Positions 5,587 through 59,462 of a stretch of 64,000 bases of DNA are shown here, piece by piece (position 1 is the first letter of the stretch; the number at the start of each line of letters is the position of its first letter). Under the pieces are notes generated by a model. It saw nothing but the letters and a program-made list of their open reading frames with translations. It was not told where the DNA came from and searched no databases. This DNA is from Oscillospiraceae bacterium (GTDB lineage: Bacteria > Bacillota > Clostridia > Oscillospirales > Ruminococcaceae). Where the stretch lies: NCBI GenBank assembly GCA_016281125.1, contig JAEEIA010000040.1:26784-90783 (forward strand), given 5' to 3'. The position numbers and the translations under genes were made by a program.

Positions 5587-5614
5587 GGGGCGCTGATGTA
5601 ATAATCAGCGCCCC
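5587..5614. terminator. Intrinsic terminator hairpin
   Basis: GGGGCGCTGAT-GTAAT-AATCAGCGCCCC. Confidence 0.6.
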
Positions 5615-5630
5615 ACAGCTTGTAGAAAAA

Positions 5631-5819
5631 GGTATCGCTGCGCGAGGATTCATAATGAGGGCTCTGCCCTCAAGCTCCTGCTGGGGATATATCCCCAGAC
5701 CCCATTTTGTATATAAATGACGAAGCTGCGAACTTATCATCAAAGTGGGATTCCAAAGGGATAGTATCCCTTTGGCGGGTTTGGGCGGAGCCCATTATCA
5801 ATCATCGCGGAGCGATACC
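5631..5819. repeat. Hairpin-rich intergenic repeat element, copy 1
   Basis: Ends GGTATCGCTGCGCGA ... TCGCGGAGCGATACC (inverted, 1 mismatch); shares GGATTCATAATG and GGGATTCCAAAGGGAyAGTrTCCCTTTGGCGGGTTTGGGCGGAGCCCATTAT with 54026-54220. Confidence 0.8.
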
Positions 5820-5823
5820 GTTG

Positions 5824-6381
5824 TCACAGCACGGGTGTTCCCGCCTGCCAGGTGCGGTATACAGCACCGTCAATCGTTTTCCACGTAAACACGCCGTTTT
5901 CCAGAGCTATATAACTGTTTTTTGAACCGTCCTTCGGGATTGACACGGAGCCGGGATTCAGGCAGACATGCCCGCCGGCCTCCGCGCAGAGCGGCACATG
6001 CGTATGCCCGTACAGCAGAATATCCCCCTGCCGCAGCTTCGGCAGATTGTCCGCATTCCAGACATGTCCGTGCGTTGCGAAGATCTGCACGGCGCCCTCG
6101 GAAATCAGCGCGTAATCCGCAAGCACCGGGAAATCCAGCACCATCTGATCGACCTCCGCCTCGCAGTTGCCGCGCACACAGAGAATGCGGTCAGCCAGCG
6201 GATTCAGCAGCGAAATCACCGTTTTTGGCGCATATTCCTGCGGCAGATCGTTGCGCGGCCCGTGATAGAGCAGATCCCCGAGCAGCAGCAGACGGTCTGC
6301 CTGTTCTGCGGCAAAGCGCTCTGTCAGCAGTCTGCAAAAATGCGCAGAGCCGTGAATATCCGATGCAATCATCCATTTCAT
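5824..6381 (-). CDS. yfcE: YfcE-family metallophosphoesterase/phosphodiesterase
   Basis: MKWMIASDIHGSAHFCRLL...LLLLGDLLYHGPRNDLP...VRGNCEAEVDQ...IFATHGHVWN...LYGHTHVPL...LNPGSVSIPK. Confidence 0.88.
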   Translation of the reverse strand: MKWMIASDIHGSAHFCRLLTERFAAEQADRLLLLGDLLYHGPRNDLPQEYAPKTVISLLNPLADRILCVRGNCEAEVDQMVLDFPVLADYALISEGAVQIFATHGHVWNADNLPKLRQGDILLYGHTHVPLCAEAGGHVCLNPGSVSIPKDGSKNSYIALENGVFTWKTIDGAVYRTWQAGTPVL

Positions 6382-53982: not shown

Positions 53983-54009
53983 GCACCCTCCGCCAGCGAC
54001 GGAGGGTGC
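53983..54009. terminator. Intrinsic terminator-like hairpin
   Basis: GCACCCTCCGtc-like stem: GCACCCTCCGCCAGCGACGGAGGGTGC. Confidence 0.5.
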
Positions 54010-54025
54010 CGCATTCTGTATAAAA

Positions 54026-54220
54026 AGTGCCTTCGTCGGATTCATAATGGGGCGCTGCTCCCATACCCCTGCTGAAAGGCTAGTGCCTTTCAGTATACCG
54101 TTATTATGAAAACAATGCATTTTCTTCGTTTTCCTATATTGCGGGATTCCAAAGGGACAGTGTCCCTTTGGCGGGTTTGGGCGGAGCCCATTATAAATCA
54201 TCTCATCGCGCAGCGATACC
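54026..54220. repeat. Hairpin-rich intergenic repeat element, copy 2
   Basis: GGATTCATAATG...GGGATTCCAAAGGGACAGTGTCCCTTTGGCGGGTTTGGGCGGAGCCCATTATAAATCATC...TCGCGCAGCGATACC; near-identical right half to copy 1; left boundary uncertain. Confidence 0.75.
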
Positions 54221-54239
54221 TTTATCGATAAGCTGCGGT

Positions 54240-55082
54240 TTACCGTTTGCCCCATTTCATCGAAATGTCGAACGCCTTGACGCTGTGCGTCAGCGCGCCG
54301 ATTGAGATGATGTCCACGCCGGTTTCCGCGACGCCGCGCAGCGTGTCATGGGTGATGCCGCCGGAGGCCTCCAGCATTGCTTTGCCGTCCGTGATGCGCA
54401 CGGCCTCCCGCATGGTATCATTGTCCATGTTGTCGAGCATGATGATGTCCGCCTTTGCTTCCAGCGCCTCGCGGAGCTCGTCCAGCGTCCGCACCTCGAC
54501 CTCAATGCGCACCATATGCCCGATGTGCTGTCTGAGCTGTGTGATCGCCGGGAGAATTCCGCCGCAGGCGTCAATGTGGTTGTCCTTGAGCATGGCGCCG
54601 TCGGAGAGGTTGAAGCGGTGGTTCTTGCCGCCGCCGCAGCGGACAGCATATTTCTGCATGGCGCGGATGCCGACCATGCATTTTCTGGTATCTGCAATGG
54701 AAGCGTTTGTGCCTGCGACGATATCAACGCATCTGCGCGTTTCGGTCGCAATGCCGGAGAGATGCTGCAAAAGGTTCAGCGCGGTGCGCTCGCCTTTCAG
54801 CAGGGTGCGCGTTTTGCCGTGCATCGTCGCAAGAATGTCGCCGTATTTCACGCGGTCGCCGTCCTTTGCAAGCGCGGTGAAGCTGACGCCCTCACCGGCC
54901 AGCGCAAAGACGTGCGCCGCAATCTCCGTGCCGCAGAGTACGCCCTCGTCCTTTGCCATGAGGTAGGCGTCGGATTCATGTGCTTCGTCCAGCAGAAAAT
55001 CACTTGTAATATCCATGCCGGTGATGTCCTCGTGCAGTGCGCGCAGGATCACCTCATCCACGTAGGATTGCAGCAGTTCCAT
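54240..55082 (-). CDS. nadC: Nicotinate-nucleotide pyrophosphorylase (carboxylating)
   Basis: GERTALNLLQHLSGIATETRRCVDIV, ADTRKCMVGIRAMQKYAVRCGGGKNHRFNLSDGAMLKDNHI, LEASGGITHDTLRGVAETGVDIISIGALTHS. Confidence 0.95.
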   Translation of the reverse strand: MELLQSYVDEVILRALHEDITGMDITSDFLLDEAHESDAYLMAKDEGVLCGTEIAAHVFALAGEGVSFTALAKDGDRVKYGDILATMHGKTRTLLKGERTALNLLQHLSGIATETRRCVDIVAGTNASIADTRKCMVGIRAMQKYAVRCGGGKNHRFNLSDGAMLKDNHIDACGGILPAITQLRQHIGHMVRIEVEVRTLDELREALEAKADIIMLDNMDNDTMREAVRITDGKAMLEASGGITHDTLRGVAETGVDIISIGALTHSVKAFDISMKWGKR

Positions 55083-56773: not shown

Positions 56774-59143
56774 ATGAAAGGTACAAAAGGGATTTCCCTG
56801 CTCAGCGCGGCATGTCTGGCGCTGACGGGGCTTGCAGGCGGATTCCCGCTGTTTTCCGCAGAAACGCCCGCAGTCTATGCTGCGGCGGTGAAAGACATTC
56901 CTGTGATCCCGGAAACGGCGATGACACAGATCACCGCATATTTTGATGCGATGAAAACCTGCGAAAAGGCATATACCGATATCAATGCGGGGCCGGATCC
57001 GGCGTTTTACCACGCATACGTCAGCGATGTGCTGCGTAAGGCAGGCGAAAAGGATACGGTTTCCTTTGCTGTTTACAAAACGGCAGCGGAGGAATGTCCG
57101 TTCACGCCGCAGAATCTGAAAGAGAAGCTGACCGCGCTCAAGGTCTACGACAGCGCCAAGGATACGGTGAAGCTGGCGGCTGAAAACGCAGACGCGAAAA
57201 ATCTGAAAAACCGGCTCTGGTGGATTGACACGCAGGAGGATCCGGACGGCGTCGTGTATACCGTTTACGGCACGACCAACGAGCTGAAAACAGGAAAACC
57301 GAAGGCTGAGGATTCGGAATTCGCGGATTACTGCGATTGCAGCGCGGACGGCAAGCAGTATTACAGCATCGGCACGCCGGTGGTCATGGAAATCCGTCAG
57401 AATCTGAACGGTACGTTCTTTATTCGCCGTTATGAAAAGACTGACCGCTACACCGCAGGCGGCAGACTGTATGTCGTTTCGCATTCCGAGGAGCTTGGCG
57501 AGGATTATAAAACGGTTTATGCGCCGGTCGATCTCAAAATGCAGTTCAGGGATGCAGAAACCGGCAAGCTGACGGATGCGGCGTATCAGCTCTATAAAAT
57601 GCGTCTGCTTGACGAGCGGACACAGTCCTATTATGAGGTGAATGTGACGGTCTGCGATGTGATTGACGACAGTGGCAATCTGCGGCTCGAGTTCCCGGGT
57701 GAGGATACCGCGTTTGCATTTGAAAGACTGTGGAAAACGGTGGACGGTGAATTCAAGTATGAAGCCATGCCGGGCGAAAAGACGACTGTCGAGGCTGTCT
57801 GCAAGGATGCAAAGGGCAGCAGGGATGTCAAGGACAATCTGGTGCAGTCTTCGGGCGACACCGAACTGACCTTCACGATCACGAAAGATCCGCAGCTTGT
57901 CACATCCGATCAGCTGAGCAGTCTGTTTACGCAGGTCGGCTGGTATTATTCCGAGGTCGTGCAGGACGGCGGCGATTTTCAGACCGGGGAAGCCGCACCG
58001 GATTCTCTCGTCATGCATATGACGGAGGACGCGCTGTACAAGTCGCCCTATAAATCGGAGCTGACCGAGATCAAAGAAACAATTCAGGTTCTGCGGTATT
58101 ACACCGTGCCGTACAAGACCTATATGGAGTATGCCGATCAGCTGTTTGCCAAGCATTCCGATCTGAAAGAGATTCTCGGCGAGCGCTATGACAGCAAGAC
58201 GGATACGGTGAAGGTTTACGTGACGTTCAGCGGTTCCGGCGGGCTGGATACCGCGAATGTCATGGTGGATTATGTGGAAAAGGACGGTCTGTTCATCGTG
58301 CGCGGTGCAAAATGCACGCCGGAAAGCGAGATGACCGGTTATACGATCTCTGATAATGCAGTTGAGAATGTGGATTATTTCACAAAGGAGTATCCGCAGT
58401 ATTCGGTTCGCTATATGATCGGCACGCCGATGCAGATGACTGTCCGACGCAGTGACCTCGGGTATCAGATCGTGTCTTATACACAGACCGAAATGCTCCG
58501 CATCGGTGATGTGCTCACGCGCAGATTCTATACACCGGATGCGACCGGCCTGCCCAAGTATGTGTGCAATATTTATTCGCCGGTCAGGGTTACGGTCACG
58601 GACAATGCGACAGGCCTTCCGGCGGAAACGAAAACGGAGCTCAACAGCAGGACCGGTGCGCTGACCGTAACGACCGCGGACGGGAAGATCAAGGTTGCGT
58701 CCTCGTCCGGCACAGCGTATCTCTATGACGGGCTTGCATGGCGCTTTCCGGTCGAACCGCTGACCTTTACCGTGACCGGTGCATGCACGGTCAACGGAAT
58801 CGACGGCAAAACGCTGAAAGCGACAGGCAAGGAGAATACCTATGAGCTTGCAGCAAAGGACGGTATGGCGGAATTCACGGTTTCTGTCGGCAGGGAACCG
58901 GAGCGCGGCGATCTTTCCGGCGACGGCGATATCTCGGTTGACGACGCGCAGCTGACGCTGAAAGCCTATACAAAGAGCGTGGCCGGTCTGGACAACGGCC
59001 TGAACCCGGCGCAGGAGAAGGCGGCGGACATCAACGGCGACGGCGAGGTGTCTGTCGATGACGCGCAGCTGATTCTGAAATACTATACGCAGAAAAAGGT
59101 CGCAGGCAAGGACATCACCTGGGATGATCTGCTGAAAAAGTGA
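56774..59143 (+). CDS. Secreted protein with two related domains and C-terminal dockerin
   Basis: Signal peptide MKGTKGISLLSAACLALTGLAGGFPLFSAETPAVYA; dockerin GDLSGDGDISVDDAQLTLKAYT...ADINGDGEVSVDDAQLILKYYTQKKVAGKDITWDDLLKK. Confidence 0.88.
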   Translation: MKGTKGISLLSAACLALTGLAGGFPLFSAETPAVYAAAVKDIPVIPETAMTQITAYFDAMKTCEKAYTDINAGPDPAFYHAYVSDVLRKAGEKDTVSFAVYKTAAEECPFTPQNLKEKLTALKVYDSAKDTVKLAAENADAKNLKNRLWWIDTQEDPDGVVYTVYGTTNELKTGKPKAEDSEFADYCDCSADGKQYYSIGTPVVMEIRQNLNGTFFIRRYEKTDRYTAGGRLYVVSHSEELGEDYKTVYAPVDLKMQFRDAETGKLTDAAYQLYKMRLLDERTQSYYEVNVTVCDVIDDSGNLRLEFPGEDTAFAFERLWKTVDGEFKYEAMPGEKTTVEAVCKDAKGSRDVKDNLVQSSGDTELTFTITKDPQLVTSDQLSSLFTQVGWYYSEVVQDGGDFQTGEAAPDSLVMHMTEDALYKSPYKSELTEIKETIQVLRYYTVPYKTYMEYADQLFAKHSDLKEILGERYDSKTDTVKVYVTFSGSGGLDTANVMVDYVEKDGLFIVRGAKCTPESEMTGYTISDNAVENVDYFTKEYPQYSVRYMIGTPMQMTVRRSDLGYQIVSYTQTEMLRIGDVLTRRFYTPDATGLPKYVCNIYSPVRVTVTDNATGLPAETKTELNSRTGALTVTTADGKIKVASSSGTAYLYDGLAWRFPVEPLTFTVTGACTVNGIDGKTLKATGKENTYELAAKDGMAEFTVSVGREPERGDLSGDGDISVDDAQLTLKAYTKSVAGLDNGLNPAQEKAADINGDGEVSVDDAQLILKYYTQKKVAGKDITWDDLLKK

Positions 59144-59145
59144 AA

Positions 59146-59202
59146 GGTATCGCTGCGCGATGCTTTATAATGGGCTGCCCCCATTATGAATCCGCCGGAG
59201 GC
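59146..59202 (+). repeat. Short member of the hairpin-rich intergenic repeat family (copy 3)
   Basis: GGTATCGCTGCGCGATGCTTTATAATGGGCTGCCCCCATTATGAATCC; GGTATCGCTGCGCGA end identical to copies 1 and 2, ATAATGGG...CCCATTAT hairpin. Confidence 0.7.
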
Positions 59203-59462
59203 ACGTTTTTTAAAGCATGAGGGCGTCGGCTGAAACAGCCGGCGCCCCTGCGTTTTTTCTGTGCCGGAAGACAGCAATCCGTTGCACTTTTTCCGATTAT
59301 ATGTTATAATGAAATCACCGGCGAAAAAAGGATGTAACCTTTTCCGAGCCGTTCCGGTCTATAAAGGGTGAAGGCGGATGCGTCCGCCGCGGCTGCCGCA
59401 GGCAGCTTCTGACAGAATCACTCTTAACATCCATTTCCACACACAGAAAGGCAGGTACATCT

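Follow-up and report, generated by a model that had tools for sequence, protein, structure and literature searches.

A short, hairpin-built and mobile-looking DNA repeat adjoining intrinsic terminators in an Oscillospiraceae bacterium and its congeners

Group IIC introns insert beside intrinsic terminator stem-loops. The REP and BIME repeats of E. coli, comprising GTAG- and CGTC-tagged REPs (PMC3733652; RepRanger, PMC12306157), are short, palindromic, mosaic and high-copy intergenic repeats. Many REPs are found no more than 15 nt away from a stop codon, and in some cases the stop codon that closes the neighboring ORF is part of the REP itself (PMC12306157). Bacterial MITEs (reviewed in PMC10969869) are non-coding, shorter than 400 bp and bounded by terminal inverted repeats (TIRs); they present many copies and recent bursts, often in 3' untranslated regions. 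Finally, the pneumococcal repeats BOX, RUP and SPRITE (PMC3049150) are modular hairpin repeats of Bacillota with a variable number of modules and are enriched downstream of genes.

The repeat analyzed here belongs to a short DNA element that is made of hairpins, carries no gene, looks mobile and is present in well over a hundred copies. It behaves like a MITE or a REP, is as modular as pneumococcal BOX and presents an unusual insertion signature. As with group IIC introns, insertion is immediately beside a terminator stem-loop; unlike these introns, the element shows no intron core, possesses TIRs and duplicates the stem-loop. No Rfam 15 family, including the intron catalytic core, was matched above its gathering score in the whole window (i.e., the 64,000-nt stretch of DNA that was analyzed). 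BOX and RUP are associated with ordinary target duplications rather than with a stem-loop duplication, and SPRITE is itself terminator-like whereas the element is inserted at terminators. The likeness to BOX is one of architecture only and, to our knowledge, the sequences of BOX, RUP and SPRITE are unrelated to the element.

A first-pass annotation of the window had described two copies of an intergenic repeat with inverted ends and three internal hairpins. This observation was confirmed: the sequences and coordinates of both copies were correct, and the first copy (W1) contains the three hairpins and the inverted ends. The window also carries a third copy of 60 bp (W3; Table 1). The inverted repeats that were taken as the limits of the element do exist, but the true outer ends lie farther out, at 5616 (left end of W1) and at 54012 and 54235 (W2). 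The T-A to C-G compensatory change reported for W2 is present and the covariation in the CCAAAGGG hairpin is genuine. The middle hairpin of W2 does differ from that of W1, but this represents the swap of a module (CTGGGG.. versus CTGAAAGG..) and not a series of compensatory point changes. The predicted RNA folds reach -99 kcal/mol for W1 (z = -8.4 relative to 200 dinucleotide shuffles) and -79 kcal/mol for W2 (z = -5.2, dinucleotide shuffles). W1 and W2 each present one terminator, without a duplicated terminator.

Table 1. Coordinates of the three element copies and of neighboring features in the window.
Feature	Positions	Strand	Basis or remark
Copy W1, from intact outer left end to end module A beside the stop codon of a minus-strand gene	5616-5819	+	stop codon 4 nt off
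W1 outer terminal inverted repeat CAGCTTGTAGAAAAAG	5616-5631	+	G000:C59:32399-32414, 0 mismatches
W1 end module A, left (mini-hairpin)	5631-5650	-	end-motif matches
W1 hairpin 2, left: GAGGGC-TCT-GCCCTC	5657-5671	+	sequence
W1 hairpin 1, left: CTGGGGATATATCCCCAG	5681-5698	+	sequence and fold
W1 linker GGGATT	5747-5752	+	invariant in 55 aligned right halves
W1 hairpin 1, right: CCAAAGGGATA-G-TATCCCTTTGG	5753-5775	+	covarying
W1 hairpin 2, right: GGGC-GGA-GCCC	5783-5793	+	sequence, right-half alignment
W1 end module A, right	5801-5819	+	4 nt from stop codon of gene 5824-6381
Host terminator stem-loop GGGGCGCTGAT..ATCAGCGCCCC	5587-5614	not assigned	1 nt from W1 outer end; T-rich tract on minus-strand side
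Calcineurin-like phosphoesterase gene	5824-6381	-	Pfam PF12850, E 2e-20; W1 between its stop codon and terminator
Copy W2, both outer ends, left one degenerate	54012-54235	+	
W2 end module C	54026-54042	-	
W2 hairpin 1: CCAAAGGGACA-G-TGTCCCTTTGG	54149-54171	+	
W2 end module A	54202-54220	+	
Host terminator stem-loop GCACCCTCCG..CGGAGGGTGC adjoining W2 outer end	53983-54009	not assigned	
nadC-type gene (quinolinate phosphoribosyltransferase)	54240-55082	-	PF01729, E 4.9e-60; W2 between its stop codon and terminator
Copy W3, 60 bp, end A joined to end C	59146-59205	+	2 nt past stop codon of ORF 56774-59143
Terminator stem-loop GGGCGTCGGCTG..CAGCCGGCGCCC, downstream of W3	59221-59247	+	

These copies are far from the only ones in their genome. 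A BLAST search with W1 returned at least 57 matches, a lower bound obtained from the scoring of 40 of 143 candidates, and a covariance model of the right half yielded 147 hits, with rough E-values. End module A was detected 65 times and end module B 143 times (reversed-pattern control: 0). Using stretches of this genome around end-motif matches, 224 ends were assembled into 75 paired elements and 74 unpaired ends. The paired elements present two size modes of ~60 bp, the kind to which W3 belongs, and ~190 bp (range 33-338), and their end combinations are AB (19), BB (18), BA (14), BC (9), CA (5), CB (4), AA (4) and AC (2). Ends swap freely between copies. Because 53 of the 75 copies carry different end modules, the idea that both ends must pair across the whole element was rejected.

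From the outside to the inside, the element consists of an outer end (CAGYYTGTMGAWAAAG and its inverse), an end mini-hairpin, hairpin 2 (GGGGC-NNN-GCCCC), the linker AAACCCCGC, hairpin 1, AATCCC and a central hairpin or host terminator, after which the order is reversed. The end mini-hairpins are of kinds A (GGTATCGCTGCGCGATGATT), B (GGTATCTCCGATGGATT) and C (AGTGCCTCCGGCGGATT), with others in congeners, and hairpin 1 exists as CCAAAGGG.., CTTAAGGG.. or CTGGGG... Among the unpaired ends, 37 resemble clean half-elements with hairpin 2 and AATCCC inside the end; the examples that we read were ordered as stop codon, end, hairpin 2, hairpin 1, AATCCC and terminator. Several long copies of 190-340 bp in this genome (L224, L239, L198, L243, L212 and L228) contain an extra internal terminator-like stem-loop, and a tandem pair with a 254-bp unit (L009:992-1433) has a host terminator (GCGGCATCAGCT..AGCTGATGCCGC) in between that is common to both copies. 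Four elements of the same genome (L211:1615-1873, L019:694-905, L016:1205-1415 and L231:2390-2454) combine the same outer ends (CAGACTGTCGATAAA..) with other inner hairpins (..GTCGAGCTTTTTTCAAAAAGCTCGCGGGTCGAGGGCAGCGCCCTCG..). They constitute a second family with common ends whose minimal form is 65 bp, and two of them present the stem-loop direct repeat described below. In the congener G031, units of ~195 bp form a tandem array (L309:700-2500) with a half-element in each unit, beside a long ORF that resembles, by eye, a LysR-type regulator.

The pairing of the hairpins is well conserved across copies. In 55 aligned right halves, the structure named in the first-pass annotation was paired in 94.7% of the cells and its covariation score (0.252) exceeded the scores of shuffles (0.109) and of slid structures (at most 0.056). 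Neither of the two outcomes named beforehand as refuting the first-pass annotation was observed: copies exist well beyond those of the window, and changes in the stems did not break the pairing. Since copies from other genomes were found via the outer stem, the inner pairs constitute an unbiased test. Inner pair 1 of the CCAAAGGG hairpin is a Watson-Crick pair in all 39 copies of this genome and in 114 of the 119 copies of other genomes (plus 3 GU pairs), where 52.7 were expected from the margins and where four pair types (AT, CG, TA and GC) are found. The preserved pairing, which had been attributed to selection on RNA or DNA structure, is thus real. Selection on the structure is the simplest reading, and quasi-palindrome correction during replication is an alternative that may also account for it. 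A proposed GNA signature of the hairpin triloops was rejected, as the loops found across phyla are mostly AGC, AGA, GGC and GGA (i.e., RGM).

Based on simple codon-bias gene calls, convergent genes flanked 47 of the 75 elements, while tandem gaps contained 23 and divergent gaps 4, compared with 6 convergent, 63 tandem and 22 divergent among the element-free gaps of the same loci, which were selected for carrying ends. In 35 of 75 cases, the distance between the element and the nearest stop codon was -1 to 7 nt, and a called ORF stopped ~20 nt inside the element in 6 more. When a strong hairpin was present on one side only, the terminator was situated away from the near stop codon in 46 of 52 cases. 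This bias is partly forced because a coding near side cannot hold a terminator, but the far-side hairpin still prevailed (13 versus 4) at elements where only one gene ends. These one-sided hairpins indicate that the decayed copies are in the 3' UTR: older copies that have lost the outer end on one side are located between the stop codon and the terminator. Element-free orthologous sites were found for both long copies of the window, for W1 in the congener G032 (L158) and for W2 downstream of nadC in G031 (L280), and each of these sites has a single terminator directly after the stop codon.

Such a location would also be expected if the repeat were not mobile but a structured 3' UTR cassette, selected for mRNA stability, translation or termination and growing by template switching between neighboring hairpins. 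Strong pairing and module swapping agree with this possibility, as does the presence of the linker-hairpin unit beside terminators in other phyla; moreover, a stem-loop could also become duplicated when the template is switched at a stalled hairpin, and palindrome correction can mimic covariation. However, insertion is what is suggested by the many unrelated loci that carry identical copies and by the element-free orthologues, and the presence of the element is patchy (2 of 148 genomes of the class, its own included). We consider such a cassette an unlikely explanation.

The junctions of the element are part of the evidence for mobility. Target-site duplications had been proposed as a check: none was found at the inner GGTATC ends of 69 of the 75 elements, but at the outer ends of some copies a whole terminator stem-loop is duplicated. 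A strong stem-loop ending 0-1 nt before CAG adjoined 34 of 49 element-like outer ends and none of the 47 controls taken 200 nt upstream. In sixty stretches of the congener G007, 45 of 63 junctions likewise presented a stem-loop 0-1 nt before the outer end. Both outer ends could be read within a single contig for 17 elements, and in 9 of these a direct repeat of 23-32 bp directly adjoins each junction, with no more than one mismatch between its two copies. These repeats correspond to the complete terminator stem-loop and vary in length with it (e.g., ACCGAAGCAGCTG-CATCAA-CAGCTGCTTCGGT in L109 and ACGCCCCGGTGCAAAAGCCGGGGCGT in L019 of the same genome as the window), while the longest common word in 270 comparisons of mismatched flank pairs was 9 nt. 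The right stem-loop copy is mostly followed by T-rich sequence and the left one often follows A-rich sequence, which suggests that both convergent genes could still end in a stem-loop with a tract. After insertion, each convergent transcript would cross the element before terminating. The duplication is not universal and unlike hairpins flank the two sides at several loci (e.g., L369 and L308). We know of no described transposition signature in which the direct repeat is exactly one whole terminator stem-loop. Our search of open-license papers retrieved no report of stem-loop duplication as an insertion signature and nothing relevant for the sequence strings of the element.

Recent activity is apparent in congeners. 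Eight junctions of G007 share an identical long element sequence with differing flanks, and the CAG end directly follows a stem-loop in most of them. This genome contains ~200 outer ends (control: 2) with many identical copies, and identical copies with different flanks are found in both G007 and G034. The burst copy of G007 is identical in sequence to loci L071 and L099, which come from Ruminococcus sp. UBA4275. Very similar terminator stem-loops also recur beside elements at many loci, such as GGGGACGCCCT..AGGGCGTCCCC at L189, L196, L198, L225 and L235 of the genome of the window and CGGAGAACC..GGTTCTCCG at L313, L336, L359 and L369 of G007. Terminators may spread together with the element.

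The MITE-like origin that had been suggested is supported insofar as the element is dispersed, is bounded by terminal inverted repeats, does not code for protein and has recently spread in bursts. The actual TIRs and the target duplication, however, are elsewhere than supposed. A classical MITE of an IS family, mobilized by a DDE transposase with a fixed short target duplication, would share these TIRs, the shortness, the lack of coding capacity and the bursts of many dispersed, identical copies. Yet no fixed short duplication was found at the inner ends and the outer-end duplication is variable in length, being the stem-loop itself. Moreover, no parental IS is known: in the stretches that we read, these ends were never noticed around a larger element containing an ORF or transposase, a non-exhaustive search with partial coverage of genomes whose assemblies break in copies. 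We regard a classical MITE as highly improbable.

The copies also resemble a REP or BIME as already known, whose spread depends on a Y1 (HUH, RAYT) transposase with single-stranded DNA as its substrate and the feet of hairpins as its cutting sites. They are high-copy extragenic palindromes in mosaic clusters and are found near stop codons like the REPs of E. coli (PMC12306157), and a HUH enzyme would suit insertion at the feet of hairpins. In contrast to REP/BIME, however, the element strings 4-7 hairpins together into a composite chain, possesses conserved linkers and is bounded by outer TIRs, and its junction is at the foot of a host terminator whose stem-loop is duplicated, which is not known as a product of HUH enzymes. 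Its outer ends (CAGYYTGT..) lack a GTAG or CGTC tag at the hairpin foot, and neither tag was seen at the palindrome foot in the aligned right halves or end logos (consensus read by eye). The Y1 transposase (PF01797) was absent from the genome of the window. It was likewise missing in 11 of 12 congeners, among them both genomes that present recent bursts, whereas control genomes were positive. The sole Y1 transposase among the 13 genus genomes searched is at G001:C240:262-618 (L310). Because the transposase test failed, we did not file the element as a RAYT-REP; as Y1/RAYT is lacking in 12 of the 13 genomes of the genus, the repeat is not a known REP, and spread by such an enzyme appears quite unlikely.

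The full element was detected at the DNA level in 18 of 19 genomes of the genus (its own included) and in none of 12 other families of the order. The pattern GGGATTCCAAAGGG-N(2-9)-CCCTTTGGCRGG matched at least 112 stretches of genome contigs, mostly from Oscillospiraceae and other Clostridia, and the inner-unit pattern was also found in Methylobacterium, Desulfovibrio, Lentisphaerae, Chlamydiales, Chloroflexi and Candidatus Magnetomicrobium. The model R1 yielded 6 to 114 hits per genome (best E 4e-8 to 1e-13) in ten distant genomes that were selected because the pattern was present. In an unselected set of 148 genomes of the class, strict filters retained only its own genome and one marginal hit. 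This indicates that the distribution is patchy, and the idea of a universal, vertically inherited RNA was rejected. In the distant genomes, 37 of 68 hits had a nearby stop codon facing the outer end (random: 0.18), and 18 of 62 hits had a strong hairpin within 70 nt before GGGATT (5% expected). At L051, L063, L085 and L123 of Methylobacterium, the unit is found inside-out directly after stop codons (GGGATT-hairpin 1-GCGGG-hairpin 2 .. hairpin 2'-CCCGC-hairpin 1'). The inner units of different phyla likely share common descent by transfer. With regard to a phage or plasmid vehicle, two patterns had no match in IMG/VR viral contigs and W1 had none in PLSDB or INPHARED.

We observed that the element is dispersed, that its junctions are at the foot of terminator stem-loops, that roughly one two-ended copy in two has a duplicated stem-loop, and that bursts occurred recently and relics are present in 3' UTRs, with most of this evidence coming from metagenome assemblies that break inside identical copies. 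We assign a probability of roughly 0.7 to the reading that this is a non-autonomous, mosaic, hairpin-built mobile element, both MITE-like and REP-like and ~60-340 bp long, that is bounded by outer TIRs and has the base of stem-loops of intrinsic (Rho-independent) terminators as its insertion site. Its insertion machinery might make a nick in both strands at the stem-loop foot, with an extruded cruciform or single strands as the possible substrate, and fill-in would then duplicate the hairpin; alternatively, a template switch at a stalled hairpin could take the place of these two steps. One stem-loop copy would keep the U-tract and the other the A-tract, which would provide a terminator to both convergent genes and render the insertion nearly harmless. 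The hairpins that older copies leave in 3' UTRs may be tolerated or, by analogy with E. coli REPs beside stop codons, may stall ribosomes or protect 3' ends. Ribosome stalling by REPs of E. coli within 15 nt of a stop codon is reported in PMC12306157, with reference to earlier work.

More tentatively, the element could form a class of its own among non-autonomous mobile elements, with the intrinsic-terminator stem-loop guiding its insertion. Copying the whole stem-loop to both sides would make it self-insulating and leave transcription undisturbed. Its inner units (GGGATT-hairpin-GCGGGG-hairpin) would then form a super-family present in high copy over many bacterial phyla (including Bacillota, relatives of Desulfovibrio, Lentisphaerae, Chlamydiales, a magnetotactic Nitrospirota and Methylobacterium) and spread by machinery not yet recognised. 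Our results point to insertion by a mechanism that recognizes the structure of DNA or RNA, not sequence, and that leaves a terminator to both neighboring genes. They offer a concrete origin for the hairpin-rich 3' UTRs of gut and rumen Clostridia and, with a linker-hairpin module that recurs in distant phyla, the spread and persistence of REP-like repeats become a testable question.
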